IMG/VR virus record: IMGVR_UViG_3300036792_000096
Location: 26,658-90,657 of that record
From: a virus
Direction: 5' to 3' (one strand)
DNA: 64,000 nucleotides
In this document: piece by piece, positions 12,354 to 34,868 of the stretch
Layout: the number at the start of each line of letters is the position of its first letter
Numbering within the stretch: the stretch's first letter is position 1
The notes under the pieces: model-generated
The model's input: the letters and a program-made list of their open reading frames with translations, nothing else
What the model was told of the DNA's origin: nothing
The model's database searches: none
Position numbers and translations under genes: made by a program

Positions 12354-12694
12354 GCGAGGTGCTCGCAGAGCCGACAAACCTCCAATGCGTCTGGTCCACC
12401 CCCGACTGCCCCATCCCGCCCGGGACCGTCCTGACCGCTCTCCCACCGCTCGAGGGCTCGCTCAGGGACGCCTATGACCTCGTGGTCGCCCTTGTGTGGG
12501 CCTATCCCCACCGTGGCGCGTCGCACCGAGAGATTGCCGTGGGGCTGGGGTGCTCCTCGAGCGCCGCTCACGGTTGGGTTGCCGAGTTGCGGAGGCTGGG
12601 ATACCTCACCGCCGGTCACGCCGTAGGCCGGTCGGGGAACAGGGCTCCGAACACCATCCGGCCGGCGGTAGTCCCGCACCGAGCCAGTGCCTAA
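12350..12694 (+). CDS. winged-helix DNA-binding protein
   Basis: A 114-residue protein with a winged-helix region at about 45-90: YPHRGASHREIAVGLGCSSS as helix-turn-helix, then HGWVAELRRLGYL as recognition helix. It could regulate the late operon or act with the ParB-methyltransferase that follows at once. ATG overlaps the previous stop. Confidence 0.65.
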   Translation: MSEVLAEPTNLQCVWSTPDCPIPPGTVLTALPPLEGSLRDAYDLVVALVWAYPHRGASHREIAVGLGCSSSAAHGWVAELRRLGYLTAGHAVGRSGNRAPNTIRPAVVPHRASA

Positions 12695-12699
12695 CTGAC

Positions 12700-14376
12700 G
12701 TGCCCCCCGAACCGTGGCGTAACCGGATCGTCGGCGAGGGCGAGGAAGCGCCTGACCAGCTTCTAGCCAACCCGTTCAACTTCCGCATCCACCCCAAGGC
12801 ACAGCAGGACGGTGTAAGCGGGTCTCTGAACGATCTAGGCTGGATACAGCGGATTATCGTCAACCGGGCCACCGGCCATGTCATTGACGGTCACGCCCGG
12901 GTAGAACTCGCAATCAGCCGTGGTGAGCCGTCGGTGCCTGTCGTCTACGTAGACGTGACGCCGGAAGAGGAGCGCAAGGCCCTAGCCGTGTTCGACGCCC
13001 TCGGTGCCTTGGCTGCCATCGACGGCCCGAAGCTGGGTGAGTTGCTCGCCTCCATCTCCACCGAAGACCCGGATCTGGAGCGGATGCTGACGGATCTGGC
13101 TGGGGCCAATGGTGTGACCTTCGGAATGGGAGGCCGAGAACCGGAGGCGGACAACCTAGAGCAAGAGGTAGCCCGCGCAACCCTAGCGGAGCGGTTTCTC
13201 ATCCCGCCCTTCTCCGTCCTTGACGCCCGACAGGGGTACTGGCAGGAACGTAAGCGAGCGTGGCTCGCCCTTGGTATCCGGTCTGAGTTGGGGCGTGGGG
13301 AGACCCTGACGTATGTGGGCCGGGAGGACGAGACAGGAGAATCCGACGCGACGTGTCGTCCAGTGTCTCGTCCTCCCGGCCCACAGCGAAACGGCCAAGT
13401 GAGTCCAGGCGGGTCGCCGGGCGCGGCGACCCGCCTCAATCAGAACGGCAAGACGGAGCGGGGCGATGGCGCTGGACACCCGCTTACGTACAAGGGGCAG
13501 GAGTCGCTCCATGTGAACGAACCCGGATCGCGTTCAGCGACTCCTGCCCCTTCCCGTCGCATGACCTACGCTACGGGCTCTGCGGAGGACTTCACATCTC
13601 AGCGCATCCTTGAGCAGGTCCCTGCTCAAGGATCAGGAACGTCCATCTTCGATCCCGTGCTGTGCGAGGTGGTCTATCGCTGGTTCTGCCCGCCCGGGGG
13701 GCGTGTGCTGGACCCCTTCGCCGGGGGTAGCGTCCGTGGTGTTGTGGCGTCTCTTCTTGGGCGCTCGTACACGGGCATCGACCTATCCGAGGCACAGGTA
13801 GTGGCCAACAGAGGGCAAGGGGAGGCTCTCTGTTCACGTTCGCTAGATAGTGCAGTGGCACCTATGCCGCGGTGGTTCATGGGTGATAGCAGCAACATTG
13901 CCGCGGACTGGCCTCCGTCCGATGCCATGTTCGATCTCGTGTTCTCCTGCCCGCCGTACTTTGACCTTGAGGTTTACACGGATTCGCCTGCTGACCTCTC
14001 ACAGGCACCCGACTATGAGGCGTTCGTGGATGCGCTGGGCACCATCCTCACCGCCTCTGCTGGCCGACTCGCCGATGATCGGTTCGTGGTGTTGGTCATG
14101 GGAGAGGCCCGCAACGGGCGGGGCGACCTGTACGGGCTTGTGCCGGGCACCGTCAAGGCCGCCGGGCGAGCGGGGCTGACGTACTACAACGAGGCGATTC
14201 TTGTGACGATGGTCGGGTCGCTGCCGCTCCGGGTCGGGCGGGCCTTCCCCGTCTCTCGGAAGCTTGGGCGTACTCACCAAACCGTTCTCGTGTTCGTTAA
14301 GGGGGACGCTACCCGGGCCGCGGCTGCATGCGGTCATGTAGAGGTGGGGGATGTACCCGAGAGCGTCAACGCATGA
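12700..14376 (+). CDS. ParB/sulfiredoxin-domain and DNA methyltransferase fusion
   Basis: A 558-residue protein from GTG 12700; an open frame continues upstream but is the shadow of the winged-helix gene. Residues 20-130 are a ParB-N-like domain (LLANPFNFRIHPKAQQDG, then GHVIDGHARVELAISRGEP). Residues about 170-190 carry LDARQGYWQERKRAWLALGI, a segment I recall from phage ParB-methylase fusions. From about 330 comes an N4/N6 methyltransferase: LDPFAGGSVRG (SAM site) and SCPPYFDLE near 417 (catalytic). The linker at about 205-312 is low-complexity and its DNA contains four perfect inverted repeats. It probably modifies phage DNA against restriction; the ParB part may direct it to sites near the terminase genes. 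Confidence 0.85.
   Translation: MPPEPWRNRIVGEGEEAPDQLLANPFNFRIHPKAQQDGVSGSLNDLGWIQRIIVNRATGHVIDGHARVELAISRGEPSVPVVYVDVTPEEERKALAVFDALGALAAIDGPKLGELLASISTEDPDLERMLTDLAGANGVTFGMGGREPEADNLEQEVARATLAERFLIPPFSVLDARQGYWQERKRAWLALGIRSELGRGETLTYVGREDETGESDATCRPVSRPPGPQRNGQVSPGGSPGAATRLNQNGKTERGDGAGHPLTYKGQESLHVNEPGSRSATPAPSRRMTYATGSAEDFTSQRILEQVPAQGSGTSIFDPVLCEVVYRWFCPPGGRVLDPFAGGSVRGVVASLLGRSYTGIDLSEAQVVANRGQGEALCSRSLDSAVAPMPRWFMGDSSNIAADWPPSDAMFDLVFSCPPYFDLEVYTDSPADLSQAPDYEAFVDALGTILTASAGRLADDRFVVLVMGEARNGRGDLYGLVPGTVKAAGRAGLTYYNEAILVTMVGSLPLRVGRAFPVSRKLGRTHQTVLVFVKGDATRAAAACGHVEVGDVPESVNA
13314..13385. repeat. inverted repeat 1, 22-bp perfect arms
   Basis: Arms at 13314-13335 and 13364-13385 are exact reverse complements (22 bp) with a 28-base loop that itself holds CGAC-GT-GTCG. 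They lie inside the linker of the ParB-methyltransferase gene without breaking its frame. A stem this long is unexpected in coding DNA. Confidence 0.9.
13407..13436. repeat. inverted repeat 2, 13-bp perfect arms
   Basis: AGGCGGGTCGCCG (13407-13419), a 4-base loop GGCG, and its exact complement CGGCGACCCGCCT (13424-13436). A very stable GC hairpin 22 bases downstream of repeat 1 in the same gene. Confidence 0.9.
13492..13552. repeat. inverted repeat 3, 17-bp perfect arms
   Basis: AAGGGGCAGGAGTCGCT at 13492-13508 is matched exactly by its reverse complement at 13536-13552, with a 27-base loop. Geometry (long arms, loop near 27-28) is close to repeat 1, although the arm sequence differs. Confidence 0.9.
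13606..13633. repeat. inverted repeat 4, 13-bp perfect arms
   Basis: ATCCTTGAGCAGG (13606-13618), two bases, and the exact complement CCTGCTCAAGGAT (13621-13633). Almost a perfect palindrome, the fourth member of the cluster and the one closest to the methyltransferase SAM motif. Confidence 0.9.
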
Positions 14377-17268: not shown

Positions 17269-17526
17269 ATGGCCGAGGCAGAGAACGGCGCTGGCCCCCT
17301 CAGCCTCTCGGCAGCCGAGGCGCTGGGGCTCCTGAGTCTCCATTCCAAGGTTCCCGTGGACAGCATGGACCCGGAGGCGCTGGGGGCGGTAGGGCGGATG
17401 CACGCCGAGCTCTGGCTTATCATGGAGGACGCCCGTACCTTGCAGGCCGGCGCCGATGAGGCGACAGGCAATGGCGCTACGCCGAAGCGCAAGCCCCGCT
17501 CATCCGTCCTGACGCCTCGCACGTGA
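17269..17526 (+). CDS. hypothetical small protein
   Basis: An 85-residue helical protein (LSAAEALGLLSLHSKVPVDS, then MHAELWLIMEDARTLQAG) located just before portal and coupled to it by a GTGA overlap. Possibly a head-assembly accessory; no family recognised. Confidence 0.55.
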   Translation: MAEAENGAGPLSLSAAEALGLLSLHSKVPVDSMDPEALGAVGRMHAELWLIMEDARTLQAGADEATGNGATPKRKPRSSVLTPRT

Positions 17527-20102
17527 ACCGGGTTCTCACCCTCGCCGGTTCACCGCAGCGCACCCTTGCACCGTCTGATGTAACCCTGACGCCTGTAATG
17601 AAGATGCCCCGCCGTCGGGGTCTGATCGCCTCGGCAGCGCCCCTCGCCATCGACCTCGCATCGTCCATGGAAGTGCGCAGGACCCGGCAGGCGCAGCAAC
17701 AGATGGCGTGGCAGTTCTTCCGAGGTATAGGGGCTTGTTGGTATGGGTCGATGTTCAAAAGTAACGCTATCTCTCAACTGCGCATTTTTCCAGCAGAGCA
17801 ACGGGGGACCCGAGACGACCCGGTTCCCATTGATGACCCGTATTCCTTGCAGCAAGTCTGTCTGGACGACATGGCGAACGGGTTCTCCGGGCTGGAGCTC
17901 GGTCACGCCCCCATCCTCGCCTCGGCAACGCTGCAAGACTCAGTAGCCGGCGAGGCGTATTGGTACTCACGTCCAGACGAGGAGACCGGGGAGAATCGCT
18001 TTGAGATCCTCTCCATTGAGGAACTTGAGATGGGAGGTGCTTCGGGGTTCCAGATCCGCCGCTACCCGGGCGCCATTCCCGAGCCGATCCTTCCCGAGCG
18101 GGGAGACAAGATCGCCCGAATGTGGACGCCCTCGCCGGAGTGGAAGGATCTGGCTACCTCACCGATGCTTGTGCAGCACGACACGCTCGAGGAGTTGTGG
18201 CTACTGATCCAAGCTGGTATCGCGGCGGCGAAGTCCAGGCTCGTCGGCGGCAAGATCGTCACCATCCCCGAGGAGCTGGACCTCGATACGCCGGCAGGCC
18301 CAGACGATGAGCCGACACCCTTTGAGACGGAACTCCGCCGGGCCGGCGCTACAGCGATTCGAGACCCCGCCTCGCCTCTGCGCTGGTTCCCGGTTCTGAT
18401 CCGGGGCAAAGCCGACTACCTCAAACCAGAGTTCATCCATGTCGTTGACCTCTACAAAGACATGCCCAAAGAGGTCAGGGACGCAATCCTAGAGCTACGT
18501 ACGCGCTTCGCCCATGACTTCGACCTACCTACAGAACTTTTAACGGGTTTAGGTGACATGACGCATTGGAACGCCTGGATCGTGGACTCCATGACGTGGC
18601 CCCACCTCCGCCCCGTCGCTCAGAGGGTCCTCGCTAACCTCACCGTCTGTGCCTACCGCCCGCTCCTCATTGCCGGCGGCATGGACCCCCGAGAAGCCGC
18701 CACACAGGTCATCGGCTACGACGAAGGGCTTGTCGTCAGCAAGCCCGACCGCTCCGCCGCGGCGACGGTAGGCGTGGAGCACGGGTTCGTCGGCAACGAG
18801 GCATGGATGCGGAGCAACGGGTTCGACCCGGAGACGGACAAGCCATCCGAGGTCGAGCGGGCACGGATCTTCGGTATGCGCTGGGGCGACCCGGGCTTGG
18901 CGTCCGTCGGCTCGCCACCCGGGATCTGGGACAAGGCCACCGGCCGCATCGCCACCCGAGTCACCGAAGAGGAGAAGGGTGTCCCGGGCGTCAGCCCCGT
19001 CCAGCAGGACGCCGGCCCGGCCGGACCCGTCCAGCCTGCACCGGGCCCTCCCGAGCCGAAACCGGCACCCGGCGCCCCCGTACCCGCCCCGCCCGCTCCC
19101 GCCTCACGTCCACCGACCCCACCAGCGCAGCCCGCCGTGGCAGCGTCGGGCAACGGGCACGGCAAGCGCCTGGGAACCTTCGCCGCCATCCCGGCCGCCG
19201 ACCCGCCAGCGAACCACGTCAAGCGAGCCAAGCTGAAGCGGTTGGGGACGAAGCTGGGCGCCATCGACCGGGACCTCCTCCAGCGCCTCTCCGTCCTCGC
19301 CGACGACCGCCTCCACGCGACCGTCAGGACCGTGGGAAGCAAGCTTCGGAGCGCCGCCCAGGGCCGGCCGGTAGCGCCTACGCTGCGGGGCATGGACACG
19401 CTTCAGATCCCCCGCATGCTCGGCTCCAAGGGCTCCCACGCCCTCGGCCTCAACGACCACCTCGAAGTAGATGCTGCTGCGGCATCCTTCGCCGCCAAGG
19501 CCGTACCATGGCTCACGAGCGCTCAGGAAGCGGCCTTGCGCCAGATCGCCGATGCCACCGGCCAGGACTACGAGGAGTTGGCAGCCGAGTCCGAGTCTCA
19601 GCGCTCCGACTGGATCACGGCGGCGGAGGCGGCTCTCACCGCGGGCTTCGCCTCCATGGCCTTGGGGTTCTTGTACAACCCCTCGCAGCCGGAAGGACCG
19701 GGTGAGATGCCCGACACCATGGCCCCGCGGGACGCCATCCGTAGCGCCATGCAGCTTGCTGGCGGGGGAGACCCCGGCTCAGGCCCGCCGCTGGGGATCG
19801 GGACGGGGCCGCTCGCTACCGACGCCTTGGATTCGGGCGGGGCGGCCGTGGACGGGTGGACGTGGGACTACACCGACAGCGCCCGCACCACATTCCCGGG
19901 CCATCTACAGTTGGACGGCATAGAGTTTGCCTCTTGGGAGGACGACCAATTGCTAGTCCAGCCTGAGGACGATTGGGTTGATACGGCGCCGTATTATTCA
20001 ATTTCTGATCATCCGGGATGCTCTTGCGGTGTCACCCCGACTGTGATTCCAGTGGAGGATCTGGCGGCATCCGACGGGGAACTAGTGGGAGTGGAAGCGT
20101 GA
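17523..20102 (+). CDS. portal protein with C-terminal MuF-like extension
   Basis: An 859-residue protein. Residues 1-490 are a siphovirus portal: helical clip and stem features such as EELWLLIQAGIAAAKSRLVG and LLTGLGDMTHWNAWIVDSM, with position after terL. Residues 495-560 are a Pro/Ala linker. The last 290 residues are a MuF-like minor head domain (VPWLTSAQEAALRQIADATG, SDWITAAEAALTAGFASMA), ending in a GCSCGVTPTV cysteine motif. Separate portal and MuF genes are usual, so this is a fusion. It forms the dodecameric DNA entry channel; the MuF part probably sits inside the capsid. Codon composition turns AT-richer over the last 150 bases. Confidence 0.88.
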   Translation: MNRVLTLAGSPQRTLAPSDVTLTPVMKMPRRRGLIASAAPLAIDLASSMEVRRTRQAQQQMAWQFFRGIGACWYGSMFKSNAISQLRIFPAEQRGTRDDPVPIDDPYSLQQVCLDDMANGFSGLELGHAPILASATLQDSVAGEAYWYSRPDEETGENRFEILSIEELEMGGASGFQIRRYPGAIPEPILPERGDKIARMWTPSPEWKDLATSPMLVQHDTLEELWLLIQAGIAAAKSRLVGGKIVTIPEELDLDTPAGPDDEPTPFETELRRAGATAIRDPASPLRWFPVLIRGKADYLKPEFIHVVDLYKDMPKEVRDAILELRTRFAHDFDLPTELLTGLGDMTHWNAWIVDSMTWPHLRPVAQRVLANLTVCAYRPLLIAGGMDPREAATQVIGYDEGLVVSKPDRSAAATVGVEHGFVGNEAWMRSNGFDPETDKPSEVERARIFGMRWGDPGLASVGSPPGIWDKATGRIATRVTEEEKGVPGVSPVQQDAGPAGPVQPAPGPPEPKPAPGAPVPAPPAPASRPPTPPAQPAVAASGNGHGKRLGTFAAIPAADPPANHVKRAKLKRLGTKLGAIDRDLLQRLSVLADDRLHATVRTVGSKLRSAAQGRPVAPTLRGMDTLQIPRMLGSKGSHALGLNDHLEVDAAAASFAAKAVPWLTSAQEAALRQIADATGQDYEELAAESESQRSDWITAAEAALTAGFASMALGFLYNPSQPEGPGEMPDTMAPRDAIRSAMQLAGGGDPGSGPPLGIGTGPLATDALDSGGAAVDGWTWDYTDSARTTFPGHLQLDGIEFASWEDDQLLVQPEDDWVDTAPYYSISDHPGCSCGVTPTVIPVEDLAASDGELVGVEA

Positions 20103-21193: not shown

Positions 21194-22075
21194 GTGGGCT
21201 CGGCAGCGACTCTCGTGATCTACCACGCTGACTGCTGGGATGGCTTCTGCGCGGCGTGGCTCATGCACCGCTACTACCCGGGCGACATTGCATTCCACGC
21301 CTCCCACTACGAGGATCCGCCTCCCAATGTGCGAGGCCACCGCGTCTTCGTGCTGGACTTCTCGTACCCCAGAGAGACCTTGGAAAAGATGGCGAAGGCC
21401 GCTGATGAACTGACCGTGCTTGACCACCACAAGACGGCAGAGGAAGCCTTAGCCGGGCTCCCGTACTGCACCTTCGACATGACGAAGTCTGGGGGGCAGC
21501 TAACTTGGGAGTGGCTCATGAAGGAGGGGTACCCGCCACCCAAACCGGCGGCTACCGGTTCGGCTTGGGAGCCTCCCGAACCGCCGTGGCTCGTGGACTA
21601 CACGGCCGACAGGGACCTATGGCGCTTTGCGCTACCCCGGTCCCGCGAGGTCAATGCGGCCTTGCGTTCCTACCCGCTCACCTTCGACGCGTGGGACGAT
21701 CTGGCTCGTCGCGGTCAGGGCCGTCTCCACGACGGGTTCGACTCGGAAGCGTTTGCCGACGAGGGCTCGGCCATTCTCCGGGCGGAATCTGTGGCTGTGC
21801 AGGCGCATGTCGCTGGGGCCAAGGAAATCGACATCGACGGCTATAAGGTGCTTGCGACCAACGCCACATGGCTGCATTCCGAGATCGCTGGCACGCTGGC
21901 GAAGGGGCGCCCGTTCGGCGCCACATGGTTCGAGCGGGATAACGTCCACCAATGGAGCCTCCGCTCAGACGAGCACGGCATCGACGTGGGAGAACTCGCA
22001 CGCCAGCACGGCGGTGGGGGCCATGTCCACGCGGCAGGATTCGAGGTACCTATCCCGGGAAGGACGAGCCCATGA
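21194..22075 (+). CDS. DHH-family phosphoesterase
   Basis: A 293-residue DHH/DHHA1 protein. Metal-binding motifs are in order: YHADCWDGFCAAWL at 10-23, VLDFSY with D55, LDHHKT at 76-81, and ADRDLWRF near 135. The glycine-rich substrate loop of DHHA1, HGGGGHVHAAGFEV, is near the C-terminus. Relatives hydrolyse short oligonucleotides, pApA, cyclic dinucleotides or polyphosphate with Mn2+. Presence in the head operon next to a second phosphoesterase suggests degradation of a nucleotide signal or nanoRNA, which is inference. GTG 21194 follows GGAGAG. Confidence 0.88.
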   Translation: MGSAATLVIYHADCWDGFCAAWLMHRYYPGDIAFHASHYEDPPPNVRGHRVFVLDFSYPRETLEKMAKAADELTVLDHHKTAEEALAGLPYCTFDMTKSGGQLTWEWLMKEGYPPPKPAATGSAWEPPEPPWLVDYTADRDLWRFALPRSREVNAALRSYPLTFDAWDDLARRGQGRLHDGFDSEAFADEGSAILRAESVAVQAHVAGAKEIDIDGYKVLATNATWLHSEIAGTLAKGRPFGATWFERDNVHQWSLRSDEHGIDVGELARQHGGGGHVHAAGFEVPIPGRTSP

Positions 22076-24684
22076 CCAAGACCGCCACCCGAAGCCGCCG
22101 CACCGTGACTGCTGCTACCCCTCCGCCTCCATCTGGCCCCACGGCACCGGCCCCAGACACGCCAGCGGCCCCCGTCGACCCCATGCCAGCATCCGGCATG
22201 GTCTGCCTGATCCTTGACGACGACACGACGAAAGCGCTCGACGCCGCCTTCCCGCCACCCGACGGCGCCACCGTTCCTGTTCCCAGACACGTCACCTTAA
22301 ATTTCTTGGGCGACGTGAGCGCGCTGGACCGGGACACCGTGGAATCGGCCATCTCCGCTGCCCTGTCGGACGCTGGCGAGGACGGAGACGCGGGATCGGC
22401 CGACGGCACGGAGACCATCTCGGGAGTCTTCGGGGGACTGGCACGGTTCACAGCCGAGACCGACGAGGACGGCAACGAGGGCAACGGCTCCCTGACGCCC
22501 ATCGTCGCCCTGTTCGACAGCCCCGGCTTGGACGATATCCAGGATGCCCTCGAGGACGCCCTGACGGCTGTGGGGATGCCAGAGCCGACGCATGGGTTTA
22601 CTGCCCACAGCACACTTTTCAGGGCGGACCTGGGGGACACGGCCACCGTCGCCTTCCCCGCCCCGCCAGCGGTCAAGGCCAGCTTCACCCAGATCGCCCT
22701 TGTCTGGGGCGACTACGCGGATGCGGCTAACGTGACCATGTTCCCGGTCGGGGGCTCGGGCGAAGGCACGCCCGCGGCAGCCCCTGCCCCCGAGGAGACA
22801 GGCCAGCAGGCCCACGTCATCAAGCACACCCATGCCCCGGGGGACCCGCTCAAGGACGAAGATGAGAACATGGGGGCGAAGCTGGCTGAGTCAGACATGC
22901 CGCCTCCGGTTGCCGCCGTGCCTGCCGCGCCCGATCCCGACGCCCCGGCACCCGCCGAGGAGCCGAGCGGCCGGCCCCCCGCCGTTCCGGGCCCGTTGGG
23001 AAGGTTCGAATGCCTGCTGGTTACCGAGGGTGAACCAACGGACGATGGCCGGATCATCAAGCCTGGCGCTCTGAGGTTCCGTGATCCGCCCCTTCCCTTC
23101 ACCTTCACCCTGATCGACTCGGGCCATGCCGATGCCCGCTTGGGCGGTGTCCTGACCGCCGTCACCCGAGACGGGGACGCCATCATGGGCGAGGGAATCT
23201 ACGCCGACAACGAGGACGGGTACGAGCTCAAGGCAGCCGTGGATCAGGGCCTGCTCACATGGGTGTCGATCGACGTCGGGGACGACACGGTCGATATCGG
23301 CCTGGATGCCGACGGCACGGAGACGATGGTGCTGCTGGACGGGCTGCTCATGGGCGCCTGTGCCCTTCCCTTCGCCGCGCAGAACACGACTTGGATCCGC
23401 TCCGTCCCCGGCTCGGAGGCGCCGATGAGTCCGGACGGGCCCGGTGGGCCGAGCATGCTCCCGCTCCCGGCCCTCTTGGCGTCCGCCGGGAAAGTCACGC
23501 TGCGGAGCGTCCCGACGGATGATTGGCAGTACGAGTCCCTGACGGCATCGGCCACCGTATGTGCCTGCGCTGGTCAGGACGAAGGGTCGGAACGCTTCGG
23601 AGCGCCTCTGTATCCCGAGGACGACTGGTTCAGCGTCCCACCGCCCGAGGACCTGACGCCGCTAACGGTGCTGGCGTCTGGGCAAGCCTACTTCCACGCC
23701 TCCGGGAACACCTGCCACATCGCCATCCCCGGAACGTGCATCAAGGCGAACGATCCGATGATGGATCGGGACTTCTCAGCGTTCCACAAGGGCCTTGACG
23801 GTCTCTCTCGGGGGATACTGACCGCCTCTGGCGAGCAGATTCAGGTAGGCCAAGTGACTCTGTACGGAGGCCATGCCGATGTGGCCCTGTCGGCTGACGC
23901 CGCTCGGCGGCACTACGACGAAACACGGAGCGCCATCCTTGATGTGCGCGCCGTGTGGGACTCCCGCAATGAGACCTTGTGGTGCTGCGGAGCCCTGCGC
24001 TACCGGGCGACGAAGGCGGAGGTGCAGGAACTGCGGGCCACAGGCCACGTCTCAATCGACTATCGCCTCCTGCTGCCTGACGGCAGCCCAGGACTACCGG
24101 GCCAGCGCGGAGCCAAGCTGCGCCTGATTGCCCTGCCCGTGATTCCTGTGGGTGGACTCCCGCCGATCAAGGCGTTCGCAGCGTCGGGCAACCTCGTGTC
24201 AGTGATCCTCTCGGATTCGAGCGAGTTCGGGCCGACGGGTGGCAGCGTCACGGACAAGGACTGGGACGGCTCGGCCAGCCGCTTCAACGATGCCCAGTAC
24301 CAGAAAGCGGCAGCCGCCTGCGACCCCGCGGACAAAGGAACCGTCAAATCCCGTTGTTTCCTCCCACATCACGAACCGGACGGCACGATCAATCGTAACG
24401 GCGTCCATGCTGCGGCGCAGCGCGTGGGAGCGCTCGAGGGCCGAAGCCCCGACGCTGTCAGTGCGGCCAAGGCCCATCTCCGCAACCACTACCGCACGGA
24501 CCTTGACGAGGATCCGCCCGACAGCCTCGGCCAGCCCAGCCAAGCCATGACCGCCGATGGGCTGCTGCTGGATCTGGCGAAGGACATGTACGGCCGACGG
24601 CTGGACGACGAAGCCTCCGCGCTGGCCGGGGTGCATCGCCAGGAAGTGGACCGGCTCGGAGGGAAGATCCTGACGCCCCGGTAG
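22072..24684 (+). CDS. 2H-phosphoesterase and capsid maturation protease fusion
   Basis: An 870-residue multidomain protein. Residues 40-225 look like a 2H phosphoesterase (2'-5' RNA-ligase-like): two H-x-T-L signatures, H73-VTL in PRHVTLNFLG and H179-STL in TAHSTLFRADLG, about 105 residues apart. Residues 305-450 resemble a phage prohead protease (RFECLLVTEGEPTDDGRIIK, TLIDSGHADARLGGV, GEGIYADN). A long middle region follows, then a C-terminal domain (residues about 765-850; SRFNDAQYQKAAAACDPADK, RSPDAVSAAKAHLRNHYR) common at the end of actinophage proteases. Position between portal and major capsid gene fits the protease. A 2H domain on this protein is unusual. Confidence 0.8.
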   Translation: MTKTATRSRRTVTAATPPPPSGPTAPAPDTPAAPVDPMPASGMVCLILDDDTTKALDAAFPPPDGATVPVPRHVTLNFLGDVSALDRDTVESAISAALSDAGEDGDAGSADGTETISGVFGGLARFTAETDEDGNEGNGSLTPIVALFDSPGLDDIQDALEDALTAVGMPEPTHGFTAHSTLFRADLGDTATVAFPAPPAVKASFTQIALVWGDYADAANVTMFPVGGSGEGTPAAAPAPEETGQQAHVIKHTHAPGDPLKDEDENMGAKLAESDMPPPVAAVPAAPDPDAPAPAEEPSGRPPAVPGPLGRFECLLVTEGEPTDDGRIIKPGALRFRDPPLPFTFTLIDSGHADARLGGVLTAVTRDGDAIMGEGIYADNEDGYELKAAVDQGLLTWVSIDVGDDTVDIGLDADGTETMVLLDGLLMGACALPFAAQNTTWIRSVPGSEAPMSPDGPGGPSMLPLPALLASAGKVTLRSVPTDDWQYESLTASATVCACAGQDEGSERFGAPLYPEDDWFSVPPPEDLTPLTVLASGQAYFHASGNTCHIAIPGTCIKANDPMMDRDFSAFHKGLDGLSRGILTASGEQIQVGQVTLYGGHADVALSADAARRHYDETRSAILDVRAVWDSRNETLWCCGALRYRATKAEVQELRATGHVSIDYRLLLPDGSPGLPGQRGAKLRLIALPVIPVGGLPPIKAFAASGNLVSVILSDSSEFGPTGGSVTDKDWDGSASRFNDAQYQKAAAACDPADKGTVKSRCFLPHHEPDGTINRNGVHAAAQRVGALEGRSPDAVSAAKAHLRNHYRTDLDEDPPDSLGQPSQAMTADGLLLDLAKDMYGRRLDDEASALAGVHRQEVDRLGGKILTPR

Positions 24685-26041: not shown

Positions 26042-27913
26042 GTGCAACCCCACCCCCGCACCACAGGCTTCCGCTTTCCCGCGGGCAGCCCGTTCCCGCT
26101 GTGGCGACCGTTCCAAGTCTGTCTCGCCCCCGACGACGACAAGCCGGGCGCCGAGCCGCAGCCCCTGGTCCCCGAAGACCTCACCGCCCTCGACCAGAAG
26201 ACCCTCGCCCGCACCGAAGCGGACCTCCTGAAGAAGGGCAAGCGCCTCCAGGACGCCCCCGCCTCCGCCGAGACCGTGGCGGAACTCCGCGAGGTCGTGG
26301 GAGCGCTCGGCAAGGTCCGGGCCGAGGTCACCCGCCGAGCCGAGGAGGCAGCCCAGCACGAGGACGAGAAGGCAGCGCTCCTCGCCGAGCTCGAACCAGC
26401 CGCTGTCGCCGATGTCGAAGACCCCGAAGGCACAGAGCCCGCAGAGGGCGAGACCGAGGGCACCGAAGGCGAGCCGGCCGAGACGGCACCGGCCGCACCC
26501 GAGCCCGTGGGTATCGCCGCATCCGCCGACCCCGCGCCTGTCCCCGTCCGCACCCGGCCCCGGGCGCCGTCGGTCCGGGACATCCCGGCGAACGCCATCC
26601 GGCCCGAGCACCGCCCTCGCCTCGAAGCTCCCCGCTCCAAGGTGACCATCACCGCCTCGGGTGACGTGCCCGGCTTCTCCGCCGGAATGGCCCTGGATGA
26701 GAGCGAACTGGGGAAGGCCTTCGCTGACAAGGCCTGGTCCATGCTCCGCGGTGCGCCGAAGTCCCGGGACTACTCAACATCGTCGTCCGTGGTCTCCATC
26801 GGAGTGGAGTACCCCGAGGAGCGCACGCTCCGGGACAATGACACCACCACCTCCAACATGGCGAAGATCGAGGCGGTGACCGCCTCCGGGGCCCGCAAGC
26901 GGGGTCTGACCGCCAAGGGTCCGAACGCCATCGTCGCCGCCGGCGGTCTCTGCGCCCCCGTGGCCGTGGACTACAGCCTCATGACGCTCGGCACGCCGGC
27001 CCGGCCAGTCAAGGACGCCCTGGTGCGCTTCGGTGCCGAACGAGGCGGTCTCCGCTTCATCACCCCGCCGCACCTCAGCGATGTCGCCCCCGGCGTCTCG
27101 CTCTGGACGCACCAGACGGACGCCGCCTGGACAACGGGGATGCCGACGAAGCCCTTCGTCATCGTCACCTGTGGTACGGAGACCGTCGTGCAGGTCGACG
27201 CCATCACGCTCGGGATCGTCGTCGGCAACTTTGATCGCATGACCTTCCCGGAGCACTTCGCAGCTTGGTACAAGCTGGCGCAGGTCTACTTCGGCCGCTT
27301 CGCCGACTCGCACCTCCTCGACCAGATCGCAACCGCCTCCGTGGCGACCAACACCACCCAGGACCTTGGTGCCGCCCGGGACATCCTGGTCCACTTGGGT
27401 ACGGCTGCGGCCGGCTATCGGTCGCGCAACCGCATGGAGACCGACGAGATCCTCCAAGTGCTTCTGCCGGCGTGGACCCGGGACCTCATGCGGGCGGACT
27501 TTACCCGCCAGCACCCCGGCGACGAGGCGGTGCAGCTCGCGGACGGCGAGATCAACGGCTACCTGGCAGCCAGCAACCTCGAGCCGACGTGGTACCTCGA
27601 TGGCCCGAACACGGGCGTGAACCAAATCTTTACCAGCCAAGGCGCCGGGTCGCTCGAGGGATTCCCCGGCACCGTCCAGGCCTTCATGTTCGCCCCCGGC
27701 TCGTTCCTCCACCTGGACGGCGGAATGCTGGACCTCGGAGTGGAGATTCGGGACTTTACGTTAGATCTCCAAAATAGGGTAGGTGGCTTTCTTGAGACCT
27801 TCGAGGCAGTGGCGTATCACGGCGTTGAAGCCCTTCAAGTGAATATGCGGGTTTGTCCGTCTGGTGGAACGAGCGCTGCCGTTCTTCCATCCACGCCTTG
27901 CTACGGAAGCTAG
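26042..27913 (+). CDS. major capsid protein with N-terminal scaffold-like domain
   Basis: A 623-residue protein from GTG 26042. Residues 35-110 are a helical, charged segment (EDLTALDQKTLARTEADLLK, VAELREVVGALGKVRAEVTR) like the delta/scaffold domain of HK97-type capsids; 110-190 are an acidic/Pro linker where the protease would cut. From about 200 the sequence fits an HK97-fold shell protein (FADSHLLDQIATASVATNTT, ILQVLLPAWTRDLMRADFTR, then DFTLDLQNRVGGFLETFEAV). It forms the icosahedral shell after cleavage by the upstream protease. The last 150 bases are AT-richer than the rest. Confidence 0.85.
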   Translation: MQPHPRTTGFRFPAGSPFPLWRPFQVCLAPDDDKPGAEPQPLVPEDLTALDQKTLARTEADLLKKGKRLQDAPASAETVAELREVVGALGKVRAEVTRRAEEAAQHEDEKAALLAELEPAAVADVEDPEGTEPAEGETEGTEGEPAETAPAAPEPVGIAASADPAPVPVRTRPRAPSVRDIPANAIRPEHRPRLEAPRSKVTITASGDVPGFSAGMALDESELGKAFADKAWSMLRGAPKSRDYSTSSSVVSIGVEYPEERTLRDNDTTTSNMAKIEAVTASGARKRGLTAKGPNAIVAAGGLCAPVAVDYSLMTLGTPARPVKDALVRFGAERGGLRFITPPHLSDVAPGVSLWTHQTDAAWTTGMPTKPFVIVTCGTETVVQVDAITLGIVVGNFDRMTFPEHFAAWYKLAQVYFGRFADSHLLDQIATASVATNTTQDLGAARDILVHLGTAAAGYRSRNRMETDEILQVLLPAWTRDLMRADFTRQHPGDEAVQLADGEINGYLAASNLEPTWYLDGPNTGVNQIFTSQGAGSLEGFPGTVQAFMFAPGSFLHLDGGMLDLGVEIRDFTLDLQNRVGGFLETFEAVAYHGVEALQVNMRVCPSGGTSAAVLPSTPCYGS

Positions 27914-29019: not shown

Positions 29020-29138
29020 GTCGCTGACCTCTCGCTAGGTTGCGGCCGGGTCCCCGGGTGTCTCACCACCGCGGGGGCCTTCTCTTCTCCCACCATTCTA
29101 CGGATGGGTACCGACACCCAGAGCCGGGAAATGGCCGC

Positions 29139-30137
29139 ATGAAAGAACCCTCAGAAATGCCCCGGCGCATCGCCCTGTGGGGAAACTTCGGAGTGCCTTG
29201 GACGACGGAAACTCACGTCGCTCTGTCTCTCGAATCCCTCGGCCACACCGTCATCCGGCTGCAAGAGGGGACGGTACGGGCGGTGGACTTCGCTGAGCGA
29301 GTCATCGCCGAGGGATGCTCACTGGCAATCTGGATTCAGACGTACGGTTTAGCCGTCACCGGTGGCACCGCAGAGGAACGCTACGGCGCGCTAGCCCGAC
29401 TCCGGGAGGCCGGCATCCCGACCATGGGGTTTCACTTGGACAGGTTCTGGGATGTCAAGGACGGCCGAGCAGACCGAATCCCCACGGAGCCCTTCTTCCG
29501 CACGGACCTGCTTGCCACGGCCGACGAGGGTGGGGGGCGGTGGCAGGAACAGGGGATCAACGCCGTGTGGTCCCCGCCAGGCATCTACCACGGCGAGGCG
29601 GTGCGAGGGACGCCTCGCCGTGAGTACCGCAGCCCCGTCGTCTTCGTCGGCAGTTGGCGGGGGGTCTACCACCCCGAGTGGACGCACCGCCGGGAACTCG
29701 TCCAGCATCTCCAAACCCGCTGGCGCCATGAGTGCGCCTTCTGGCCGCGAGGCGAAGCCGTCCGTGGCCAAAACCTGATCGACCTCTACGCCTCCGTCGA
29801 TATCGTGGTGGGGGATTCGTTCATGACGCCCGGTTCCTACGCTTTCCACTCAGATCGAATTCCGGAGACTTTGGGTAGAGGGGCGTTTTTGGTCCATCCG
29901 TACAATCCGGGCTTGGAGACTCTGTACGAGGACGGCAAGCACCTCCGCTACTGGCCGCTCGGGGACTGGGCAGAACTGGACCGGCTCATCCGCTACTACC
30001 TAGACCACCCCGAGGAGCGGCAGGCCATCGCCGACGCCGGCCAGCGACACGTACAGGAGTCCCACACCTACAGAGAACGCATGAAGCGCCTGCTGCCGAT
30101 GGCTCTCGCCCTCAAGCCCGCTGAGGCTGCGGTATGA
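29139..30137 (+). CDS. glycosyltransferase (GT-B, Glyco_trans_1_2-like)
   Basis: A 332-residue protein from ATG 29139 (ATG 29157 possible). The N-terminal half has a Rossmann-like start (RRIALWGNFGVPWTTETHVA). The C-terminal half matches the family of phage and CgeB-like glycosyltransferases: LIDLYASVDIVVGDSF, SDRIPETLGRGAFLVHPYNP, and the terminal DHPEERQAIADAGQRHVQES. It transfers a sugar from a nucleotide donor. First gene of an accessory island between capsid and tail genes; see the island finding. Confidence 0.8.
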   Translation: MKEPSEMPRRIALWGNFGVPWTTETHVALSLESLGHTVIRLQEGTVRAVDFAERVIAEGCSLAIWIQTYGLAVTGGTAEERYGALARLREAGIPTMGFHLDRFWDVKDGRADRIPTEPFFRTDLLATADEGGGRWQEQGINAVWSPPGIYHGEAVRGTPRREYRSPVVFVGSWRGVYHPEWTHRRELVQHLQTRWRHECAFWPRGEAVRGQNLIDLYASVDIVVGDSFMTPGSYAFHSDRIPETLGRGAFLVHPYNPGLETLYEDGKHLRYWPLGDWAELDRLIRYYLDHPEERQAIADAGQRHVQESHTYRERMKRLLPMALALKPAEAAV

Positions 30138-32023: not shown

Positions 32024-33777
32024 CCACCATTCCCGTGATCTACGTCTCGCGGCATGAGGGTATCTTGTCCCATCTGTACGCAGATATGGGCCTGCTGGAA
32101 TCCATCCTCGCTGGCACCGTCTGGAACCCGCCTGGGGCGTTCACCTTTGAGCACTACGTAGACGTGGGTCGGCCCGGCTCCGCCGATCCCGACGCCTTCC
32201 CGGCCGTGGCTGGCGCCGTTGTCATGGTCCCCGCCCGCCACCACACCTCTCCCGAAGATGTCCAGTGGCTGCTGGCCCAACTTGACCGCCTGTCGTGGTA
32301 TGTGACCGTCCTATGTGGTGACGAGGAATGGGCATTTCCGTGGCAGCGCATCCCCCGCTCCGAGCACCGGAAGGTGTGGGTCATGCAGCCCCGGCCAGAG
32401 CATGCCGGGCGCGTGGACGGGATGATCCCCGGTGGCTGGTATCCGGGGACGCGGGAGGGCATCAGTGTTGCTCAGGCCCGTCGGACAGCCTTGAAGCTCG
32501 ACGCATCCGATGAGCGCTACTGGGATGTTTTCTTCGCCGGTCAAGTCACCCACAGACGTCGCGAGGAATGCGCTGCCGTGCTGAGGGCGATGGACCCCCA
32601 GAGGCGGTTCCTCTACGAAACGAAGGGCTATCTCCAAGGGATGGCGCAGGACGAATACATGGCTCTCCTCTCCTCGGCCAAGGTAGTCCCCTGCCCGTCC
32701 GGGCCCTACACGGTAGACACCGCCCGGCCCTTGGAAGCGCTCGAGGCGGCCTGCGTGCCTGTCGTGGACACCCTGACGCCCCGGGGTGACGACTGGGACT
32801 ACTGGGGTCTTGTGTTCGGCCCTGATTGCCCCCTGCGGCGGATCCGGGATTGGGAGACCTTCCCCAAGGTGCTCACCGAGGAGTTGGCCGACTGGCCCAA
32901 CAACTCGAATCGTGTGTTCGCTTGGTGGCAGGGCTGGAAGCGGAGGATCACCCACCAGTTGCACGACGACATCGCCAGCGCATCGGGGGTTCCCCTAGTT
33001 CTTGACGGACCCGACGCCCTCGTGACGGTCCTCATTACCACGTCTCCCGCACCGTTGCACCCCTCGACCGCCCATCTTGAGGAGACCGTCGCGGCGGTGC
33101 GGGAGCAACTCCCTAACGCGGAGATCGTCATCGCCTGCGATGGGGTACGGCCGGAGTTGGCAGAGCGCGCTGCGGACTACGGCGAGTATCTCCGTCGGGT
33201 GCTGTGGCTGTGTAACTTCGAGTGGCGCAACGTGGTGCCGTTCGTCGCTGACGAGTGGCTACATCAGGCCGAGCTCACCCGCCGTGCTCTGAGCCTCGTG
33301 CGGTCCCCGCTCATGTTTTTCGTGGAACACGACCGGCCGCCCGTGGGACGGATCGACTGGCCGGGGCTCTGCGCCGTGGTGGGGTCGGGGGAGATCGACA
33401 TGGTCCGACTGCACGCCGAGGAAAGCATCCATCCCGAGCAGATGCACCTCATGCTTGGTGCCCAGACGCCGATCAGCGGAGTCCCGCTGCTCCGGACGGC
33501 GGCGTGGTGGCAACACCCGCACCTCTGCCGCACGGAGTGGTACCGGGGCATCCTCGCCGAGCACTTCCCGCCCGGAAGCCGGACGTTCATCGAAGACCGC
33601 CTCTACCAGCTTGCCGAGAATGACTTCTTCGACCACGGCCCCGGTTCGTGGCAGCGGTGGAAGCTCGCCATCTACTGCCCGCCGGGGAGCATCCTCCGCA
33701 GCCGTCACCTCAACAGCCGCAGCGATGCTCCCAAGGGCGAGATTTGGTTCGGCGAGACGGCGGAGGTGCCCGTATGA
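32020..33777 (+). CDS. two-domain glycosyltransferase-like protein
   Basis: A 585-residue protein. The first 330 residues resemble an exostosin/GT-B-like domain: RYWDVFFAGQVTHRRREECA, LQGMAQDEYMALLSSAKVVP, then PSGPYTVDTARPLEALEAAC with the acidic acceptor-donor loop. From about 335 a second, GT-A-like domain begins (ALVTVLITTSPAPLHPSTAH, NAEIVIACDGVRPELAERAA) and includes FVEHDRPPVG in place of a DxD. Two fused transferases could build a disaccharide. Assignment by pattern; substrates unknown. Confidence 0.65.
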   Translation: MTTIPVIYVSRHEGILSHLYADMGLLESILAGTVWNPPGAFTFEHYVDVGRPGSADPDAFPAVAGAVVMVPARHHTSPEDVQWLLAQLDRLSWYVTVLCGDEEWAFPWQRIPRSEHRKVWVMQPRPEHAGRVDGMIPGGWYPGTREGISVAQARRTALKLDASDERYWDVFFAGQVTHRRREECAAVLRAMDPQRRFLYETKGYLQGMAQDEYMALLSSAKVVPCPSGPYTVDTARPLEALEAACVPVVDTLTPRGDDWDYWGLVFGPDCPLRRIRDWETFPKVLTEELADWPNNSNRVFAWWQGWKRRITHQLHDDIASASGVPLVLDGPDALVTVLITTSPAPLHPSTAHLEETVAAVREQLPNAEIVIACDGVRPELAERAADYGEYLRRVLWLCNFEWRNVVPFVADEWLHQAELTRRALSLVRSPLMFFVEHDRPPVGRIDWPGLCAVVGSGEIDMVRLHAEESIHPEQMHLMLGAQTPISGVPLLRTAAWWQHPHLCRTEWYRGILAEHFPPGSRTFIEDRLYQLAENDFFDHGPGSWQRWKLAIYCPPGSILRSRHLNSRSDAPKGEIWFGETAEVPV

Positions 33778-34868
33778 CCGGGCCCCGCTGCGCTCTGCTG
33801 GTGCGTTCGGATCATAGGGGCCTCGGATATCAGTCCCACGGTTACTACCAGCACCTCTCGCCGGTCAAAACCCTCCACGTCCACATGACCTCGAACCTTG
33901 GGACATGGACACCCTACGCAGAGCACCGGGAGGCGTGGTATCCCGACGTGCGCTCAGCCAACTATGACGGCCACACGGGGCGGCTGGACGACGAGGCTGC
34001 TATTCGCTGGCTGCTGGCTGACGTGGATGTCCTGCTCTCGGCCGAGACCTTCTACGATTTCCGGGTCATCGGCTGGGCGCGGGAAGCGGGCGTCAAGACG
34101 GTCCTAGTCGGGAATCCGGAATTCCTCAGACCCGAAGTTCTGGTCAGTCCTCCTGACGTCCTCGTGATGCCCTCCCGCTGGCGGCTGGACACCATCCCCA
34201 ACGCCGTCCACCTCCCCCAGCCCGTGGACCGCAGCGTGTTCGCCTTCACGCCCCGCCCGCTGGTTCCTGACCGGCTCCGGTTCCTGCACGTCGTGGGCCA
34301 CCGGGCGGCGAGGGACCGGGCTGGGACGGATCTCGTGCTCGACTGCATCCGCTTCCTGCGCCACCGCATCGACCTCACCATCCGTTGTCAGGGCTCGCTC
34401 TCGGCCCCTCAGCAGTTGCTCCTACGGGGACTCAGGCGCCACCAGATCCCAACGGTGCTGTTGGGCGACGTGGACGATCCCCGGGCGCTGTACGAGGGCT
34501 ACGACGTGCTCCTGGCGCCGAGGAGGTATGGGGGCCTCTCGCTCACGCTCAACGAGGCAACTTCCTGCGGGCTGGCAATCATCGCCACGGACCGGGAGCC
34601 GGAACGCTTCGCCCTGCCGGCGGAGGCCCTCGTACCAGCCTACCGGGGGCGGGACGTGCAGTTCCAGGGCGGGACCTTCACGCTGGACGATGCCAACCCT
34701 CGGGACTTGGCCGAGGCCATCGACCGGCTCGTGGACGACCCCGCCGCGGTGGCCCGGCTCTCCGCGGCCTCAGACGCCTATGGGGAGTCCATCTCGTGGG
34801 AAACGCTGGCCCCGAAGTGGCGAGCGCTCCTTGAGCGGGCCACGACCATGACGGGAGTGGGACCGTGA
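33774..34868 (+). CDS. GT4-like glycosyltransferase
   Basis: A 364-residue GT-B protein. The C-terminal nucleotide-sugar domain shows ILTIRCQ-type beta strands, YEGYDVLLAPRRYGGLSLTL (the E/G loop of GT4 enzymes), EATSCGLAIIATDREPERFA and DPRDLAEAIDRLVDDPAAVA-like ending helices. ATG overlaps the upstream stop. It probably extends the glycan made by the preceding transferases. Confidence 0.78.
   Translation: MTGPRCALLVRSDHRGLGYQSHGYYQHLSPVKTLHVHMTSNLGTWTPYAEHREAWYPDVRSANYDGHTGRLDDEAAIRWLLADVDVLLSAETFYDFRVIGWAREAGVKTVLVGNPEFLRPEVLVSPPDVLVMPSRWRLDTIPNAVHLPQPVDRSVFAFTPRPLVPDRLRFLHVVGHRAARDRAGTDLVLDCIRFLRHRIDLTIRCQGSLSAPQQLLLRGLRRHQIPTVLLGDVDDPRALYEGYDVLLAPRRYGGLSLTLNEATSCGLAIIATDREPERFALPAEALVPAYRGRDVQFQGGTFTLDDANPRDLAEAIDRLVDDPAAVARLSAASDAYGESISWETLAPKWRALLERATTMTGVGP

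Follow-up and report, generated by a model that had tools for sequence, protein, structure and literature searches.

Phosphoesterase domains of the 2H superfamily have already been described on bacteriophage head proteins. In its section on these domains, the survey by Iyer et al. 2017 reports them in fusion with MuF or portal domains and never with RNA ligases, and proposes RNase action or the degradation of counter-invader nucleotides as their role; the same authors note that polyvalent proteins can end in a C-terminal assemblin-like peptidase (PMC5512222). In the passages of actinophage surveys that deal with gene fusions, protease-capsid, MuF-protease and VIP2-MuF fusions are described, with 2H-protease not among them (PMC7302621, PMC5513430, PMC13313380). 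The anti-CBASS protein Acb1, directed against the cyclic-oligonucleotide-based antiphage signaling system (CBASS), has an HxT/HxT tetrad as its active site (PMC9117128), and a review citing Richmond-Buccola et al. 2024 states that a prohead protease interacts with a CBASS sensor (PMC12409349). No paper on a 2H-protease fusion was found in the open-access literature searched. Such a fusion is described here from a stretch of 64,000 nucleotides (the window), bases 26658-90657 of the 90,657-base IMG/VR virus record IMGVR_UViG_3300036792_000096. A single gene of the window encodes a 2H domain, a linker and a protease part with two tandem domains.

The combination of a 2H fold, intact motifs and an in-frame fusion emerges from the computations with near certainty. 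A sequence-only reading of this DNA had taken two H-x-T-L motifs, about 105 residues apart, as the mark of a 2H phosphoesterase domain. The motifs stand at H73 and H179, 106 residues apart. On its own the pair is weak evidence for such a domain, as shuffling produced it by chance 402 times in 20,000 for the whole protein and 38 times in 20,000 for the domain. The predicted structure agrees with the assignment. An AlphaFold2 model was made from 60 aligned sequences, namely the window, its relative L010 and 58 of the 80 loci from the scan described below, and it reached a predicted local distance difference test score (pLDDT) of 86.5 and a predicted template modeling score of 0.84. The whole predicted domain has the two-lobed 2H fold and matches solved 2H enzymes, led by drCPDase from Deinococcus (Z 16.0, root-mean-square deviation (rmsd) 3.3, 166 residues aligned). 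PH0099 and TT0787 (Z 15.4 each), E. coli LigT (Z 15.0, rmsd 2.7, 160 aligned) and human Usb1 (Z 14.4) follow, and the more distant folds include coronavirus ns2 (Z 12.0), rotavirus VP3 (Z 11.3) and the penguinpox cyclic GMP-AMP phosphodiesterase (Z 10.0). Foldseek also gives LigT as the best match (E 8.6e-8).

The 2H superfamily is therefore the right one by fold and by sequence profile, and its nearest branch is LigT-like. This resemblance to LigT is one of fold, as the TIGR02258 model (LigT / RNA 2',3'-cyclic phosphodiesterase) scores the window protein at 20 bits against a cut-off of 65.7. PF13563 (2'-5' RNA ligase superfamily) likewise gives 15.2 bits on residues 70-212, below its cut-off of 27; the relative L010, 67% identical, clears the PF13563 cut-off with 29.4 bits.

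Conservation of the catalytic residues is the second line of evidence. The first histidine, the first threonine and the second histidine are invariant in all 60 aligned rows, and the second threonine is kept in 57. The search pattern demanded the first motif in the 58 scan loci and left the second free, so the second histidine serves as an independent test of conservation. Among 15 hand-picked domains, both histidines were present in every one and the second threonine in 14. The 2H domains of the relatives are 17-32% identical to that of the window (70% for L010), and the invariance of the catalytic residues across otherwise divergent domains argues for catalysis. The domain is thus very probably an active enzyme. 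Additionally, R184 lies five residues after the second histidine, at the place of LigT Arg130, which together with His125 holds the nucleophilic water (PMC5283653). This arginine occurs in 3 of the 60 rows (window, L010, L099), and 56 have tyrosine. The sequence-only reading had staked its assignment on a 2H-like fold and on well-conserved histidines. Structure prediction returned a 2H fold, closer to LigT than to Acb1, and neither histidine varies in the 60 rows.

The first protease domain was also identified by fold. The model of residues 305-723 has a mean pLDDT of 66.8 but reaches about 90 across most of the first 140 residues; in view of the low mean, the first ~145 residues alone were used for fold comparison. 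Foldseek gave no match at E <=0.001 for the protease model, the best being 2.7e-2, and its top matches included T4 gp21 and a protease of a herpesvirus. A second aligner found an assemblin fold in residues ~306-448, with Z 10.9 to T4 gp21 (rmsd 2.5, 121 aligned) and Z 8.0-9.7 to herpesvirus assemblins. H352 and S399 in the first domain (protA), as well as H601 and S661 in the second (protB), are invariant in all 32 aligned rows. The window protein is absent from the Pfam Peptidase_S78 matches with E up to 1, and the related proteins L003 and L005 reach S78 scores just under the cut-off. The first domain is taken to be the protease; the second is conserved and stands without a fold assignment. 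Portal and major head protein genes, recognized by phrog profile matches, flank the fusion gene. The label of capsid maturation protease in the sequence-only reading is borne out by the assemblin fold and by this position, and its placement of the phosphoesterase part at 22072-23000 agrees with the 2H domain and linker, which occupy roughly 22189-22986.

Fusions of this kind recur. An IMG/VR scan seeded with five 2H domains gave 142 pattern matches and 80 kept loci of 87 relatives, and arrangements were called with self-built profiles from window, phage and locus segments. The 2H domain is in frame with a recognized head domain in 60 of the 80 loci, in ten arrangements: S78-2H (21 loci), 2H-XkdF (12), MuF-2H-protA-protB (12), p3894-2H (5) and, at no more than two loci each, portal-2H-MuF, 2H-capsid, MuF-2H, 2H-protA-protB, portal-2H and 2H-S78. 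Single-locus examples include a 2H domain in a protease-capsid frame (L030), portal-2H-MuF (L029) and portal-2H (L038). The order 2H-protA-protB without MuF is common to the window, L010, L185, L090 and L094, the last two lacking their 5' ends at contig ends. Library scans covered 63 of the 80 loci, after near-duplicates and the two longest loci (L087, L092) were dropped, 17 in all. Pfam matches among the 63 comprised PF13563 in 60 (E up to 0.01), LigT_PEase in 57, S78 in 21, Mu_F in 10, S78_2 in 9, Acb1 in 6 and Phage_portal in 4. The head maturation protease family phrog_18402, whose profile also spans a 2H stretch, matched 46. In bacterial genomes five loci were found, among them three with S78-2H, two in Streptomyces and one in Planomonospora, and the genomes searched held no close relatives of the 2H-protA-protB alignment. 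One 1782-residue protein (L092:3099-8444) combines a 2H domain with a topoisomerase IB core and a Mu-like protease, and is polyvalent-protein-like.

Named phages carry related genes. Edmundo gp18 and ValentiniPuff gp7 consist of a 2H domain and an XkdF protease. The 2H domain of the window alone matched phage records weakly (6 records at E up to 1, best 0.02), and the wider 2H family was reached through Edmundo and ValentiniPuff queries. The ValentiniPuff 2H domain matched 211 phage records and the Edmundo protein 323, mostly from Gordonia, Mycobacterium, Arthrobacter and Streptomyces phages. Among the matches listed, a gene deposited as 'RNA ligase' can appear as 'head maturation protease' in the RefSeq counterpart of the record, for example in Tangent (H103/H104). 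The naming of the same fused gene is inconsistent more broadly (H103/H104, H79/H80), with RNA ligase, aldolase class I, portal protein, head maturation protease and hypothetical protein all in use. If the reading of a head-borne 2H enzyme given below is true, a large set of actinophage 'RNA ligase' genes would be misnamed, the matched domain being 2H and neither ATP-grasp nor RtcB. Stand-alone short 2H genes also occur amid portal and head genes in the three records examined for them (Chidiebere, Teardrop and E3). In Gordonia phage Chidiebere (L015:4755-6835), the stand-alone 2H gene ('RNA ligase') is followed directly by a gene annotated as a VIP2-like ADP-ribosyltransferase, both 3' of the portal gene. 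Arthrobacter phage Edmundo, Gordonia phages Tangent and GTE6, and Streptomyces phage TP1604 offer culturable models for testing delivery, cleavage and substrate.

The 2H domain is an optional part of these proteins. Three protease domains without 2H seeded a further scan, from whose 272 relatives 80 loci were kept; in none of the 80 did the DNA examined contain a 2H match anywhere. A window-like protease query returned L185 and L186 (the L010 contig), both with 2H in frame. The domain is accessory and dispensable for maturation, judging from these loci, and its optional presence points to an accessory function rather than to assembly. The sequence-only reading had called the fusion no standard feature of phage proteases. 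This is true of most proteases, going by the 80 related-protease loci; however, the fusion is recurrent and already present in databases, and fusions of 2H to MuF or portal domains have been in print since 2017 (PMC5512222). In a quick tree of 86 domains, the window and L010 are joined with a support of 100 in the Shimodaira–Hasegawa-like approximate likelihood ratio test, and L185 is added with 85. This group stands apart from the Streptomyces-type MuF-2H-protA-protB set. At least 14 arrangement changes are needed on the tree, or 12 when six long-branch rows are omitted (80 rows). Approximately unbiased tests on the 80 rows rejected the grouping of all protA-linked 2H domains (p 0.037) and of all XkdF-linked ones (p 0.0385); being borderline and chosen after the first tree was viewed, they are suggestive only. 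Several independent 2H joinings are likely, not proven. Because the tree needs at least 12 to 14 arrangement changes, the constant feature is the head, not any single partner.

The fold, the histidines and the fusion were computed, and from them we infer an activity, a location in the head, an ejection and a substrate. The two HxT motifs would line one active site, acting without metal on an RNA-type phosphate; candidate substrates are a 2',3'-cyclic phosphate, a 2'-5' linkage or a cyclic signal nucleotide. The fusion would be made late, and its protease part would recruit it to the assembling head. In the simplest reading, the partner addresses the 2H enzyme to the head, since all partners enter the procapsid. 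Entry into the procapsid is itself likely in view of the many head-protein partners. The protease would probably cut the Pro/Ala-rich linker, leaving the enzyme inside the head. The enzyme would most likely be ejected with the DNA and would blunt a nucleotide-signal or RNA-cutting host defence before phage genes are expressed.

These steps do not carry equal weight. The chances that the enzyme stays in the virion and is ejected fall a little below even, and a counter-defence role, exerted on defence nucleotides or on damaged RNA ends, is nearly, if not quite, an even prospect. As a whole, the picture of an active LigT-like 2H enzyme that is carried into the procapsid by the maturation protease, likely ejected, and used in counter-defence is offered tentatively. 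If true, counter-defence would start with the incoming particle, not with early genes. A broader form is conceivable and rather doubtful: head-addressed 2H enzymes may form a general class of virion cargo, repeatedly joined to proteins that enter the procapsid (several unrelated protease families, MuF, portal, capsid), which would be packed, released by the protease and ejected with the DNA, erasing nucleotide signals or RNA-damage ends before phage gene expression.

Several observations weigh against this picture. After maturation, proteases are frequently degraded or lost, and this fits work at the assembly stage better than delivery. Both family models score the window protein below their cut-offs, and 20 of the 80 loci show no recognized in-frame head domain, some of them being cut by contig ends. 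The scan seeds were themselves head-fused domains, so the proportion of fusions among the loci should not be read as an unbiased frequency. The literature searched yielded no virion proteome for a phage with a 2H fusion; the available part of the Thermobifida phage P318 virion proteome lists no 2H-fused protein and is not used as evidence. An assembly-stage role would have the 2H domain act at a late stage, either in the infected cell or in the head under assembly, where, undelivered and tied to the protease, it would destroy signal nucleotides raised when the host senses prohead assembly, for example CBASS signals that the prohead protease triggers. Fusion to several unrelated proteases (S78, XkdF, protA/protB) fits a link to the protease itself, as does the reported contact between prohead protease and CBASS sensor (PMC12409349), and a signal-cutting domain on the very protein reported as a CBASS trigger makes a clear, testable hypothesis. 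However, the domain is also joined to MuF, portal and capsid without a protease, so that a protease-specific role is not general, and Acb1 is not its nearest relative. Such late action is considered unlikely. The sequence-only reading had pointed to Acb1, and its narrow form, an Acb1-type anti-CBASS nuclease, shares the superfamily and the active-site plan, with a fold match to phage BCSR5 Acb1 at Z 10.5 (FBB1 Z 10.0; Acb1 is shorter, which lowers Z) and Pfam Acb1 matches in 6 of 63 relatives (best 5e-6). The common superfamily stands, but the nearer relatives are LigT-type enzymes, both in fold (Z 15-16 against 10) and in profile (E 2.4e-15 for drCPDase against 1.5e-4 for BCSR5 and 0.007 for FBB1). 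The window protein does not appear among the Pfam Acb1 (PF23474) matches with E up to 1, in a search where HMMER filters may drop weak matches. Membership in the Acb1 family is not supported, and the narrow form is very improbable.

The likeness to LigT also raises RNA repair, in which the 2H domain would heal the 2',3'-cyclic phosphate ends that host RNases or anticodon nucleases leave on RNA and so allow re-sealing. The nearest solved relatives, LigT and 2',3'-cyclic phosphodiesterases, agree with this, and so does R184. A pure repair role is made less likely by the absence of RtcB and PF09414 ligases from the 90,657-base record, which may itself be a fragment; the PF09511 ligase search was uninformative, being silent in all 14 control genomes. 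Moreover, repair does not need addressing to the head, and the 2H section of Iyer et al. never associates these versions with RNA ligases (PMC5512222). Repair is held to be improbable. A non-catalytic binder or scaffold, such as an RNA- or nucleotide-binding spacer in the procapsid, would suit a domain that is optional and sits at the end of a late head protein. The catalytic H, T and H should have been lost from a pure binder, yet they are invariant despite 17-32% identity, and this explanation has very little probability. An enzyme carried in the head remains the preferred, if tentative, reading.

The features of the locus are collected in Table 1. The pairing of a short-oligonucleotide nuclease (DHH/DHHA1) gene with the adjoining 2H enzyme is suggestive. 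In a tblastn search over the loci fetched to that point, the DHH protein matched the window's own locus only, and for this reason a DHH-2H module for two-step nucleotide degradation was rejected as a conserved unit. The ~90-residue module (WDGSASRFND...CFLPHHEPDGTINRNGVHAAAQ) is C-terminal in the window and lies between 2H and protease in L185, which marks it as a mobile piece. Elsewhere in the window, a single open frame (12496-14376) has a central match to ParB-like families and a C-terminal one to a DNA methyltransferase family, and two glycosyltransferase-like genes stand amid structural genes (29040-30137 and 33648-34868; phrog_28745, phrog_2170).

Table 1. Fusion gene, its parts and its neighbours in the window.
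Feature	Position	Strand	Basis
2H-protease fusion gene, 870 amino acids	22072..24684	+	ATG-initiated open frame, ribosome-binding-like stretch just 5', profile matches throughout its length
Ribosome-binding-like stretch GGGAAGGA preceding ATG 22072	22057..22064	+	sequence
2H phosphoesterase domain, residues ~40-229	22189..22758	+	AlphaFold2 pLDDT 86.5; LigT/CPDase Z 15-16; PF13563 below cut-off
First catalytic motif H73-V-T-L	22288..22299	+	H and T in 60/60 rows
Second catalytic motif H179-S-T-L-F-R184	22606..22623 (H-S-T-L 22606-22617)	+	H in 60/60, T in 57/60 rows
Pro/Ala-rich linker, residues 226-305, putative cleavage region	22747..22986	+	composition, 16 P and 16 A in 80; cleavage inferred
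First protease domain (protA), residues ~311-460, H352 and S399	23002..23451	+	assemblin fold; phrog_859/phrog_21470
Second H...S domain (protB), residues ~520-665, H601 and S661	23629..24066	+	32-row invariance; phrog_29860 4.7e-7; low model confidence
C-terminal ~90-residue module, residues ~742-829	24295..24558	+	tblastn, 68% identity to L185:2654-2929
Portal gene	17523..20102	+	phrog_776 7.4e-53
DHH/DHHA1 phosphoesterase gene	21194..22075	+	phrog_4771 3.1e-76; 4-base overlap with fusion gene
Major head protein gene	26042..27913	+	phrog_777 3.1e-69

Set beside known systems, the gene shares parts with each of them. With LigT and drCPDase, the 2H domain has in common the whole-domain fold, both HxT motifs and, in the window and L010, the arginine five residues after the second histidine; those are free enzymes, whereas the window domain is part of a head protein and scores below the family cut-off. 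Acb1 shares the 2H superfamily and the HxT/HxT site, is more distant in fold (Z 10) and profile, and is a free-standing early protein. The assemblin-type proteases (T4 gp21, herpesvirus assemblin, S78) resemble the first protease domain in fold and in the conserved histidine and serine, and the window protein differs from them in its two tandem H...S domains and its added enzyme domain. In the actinophage genes Edmundo gp18, Tangent gp14, GTE6 Orf18, TP1604 gp11 and Rizwana gp17, 2H is likewise in frame with a protease, MuF or both, in another order or with another partner (2H-XkdF, protB-2H, MuF-2H-protA-protB). The polyvalent proteins of Iyer et al. 2017 also place a 2H domain on a phage head protein without association with RNA ligases, a description that the window fits; its partner is the maturation protease, which the 2H section of that work does not name. 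Head-fused 2H domains were known already, and what is new is a 2H domain on a tandem-domain protease without MuF.

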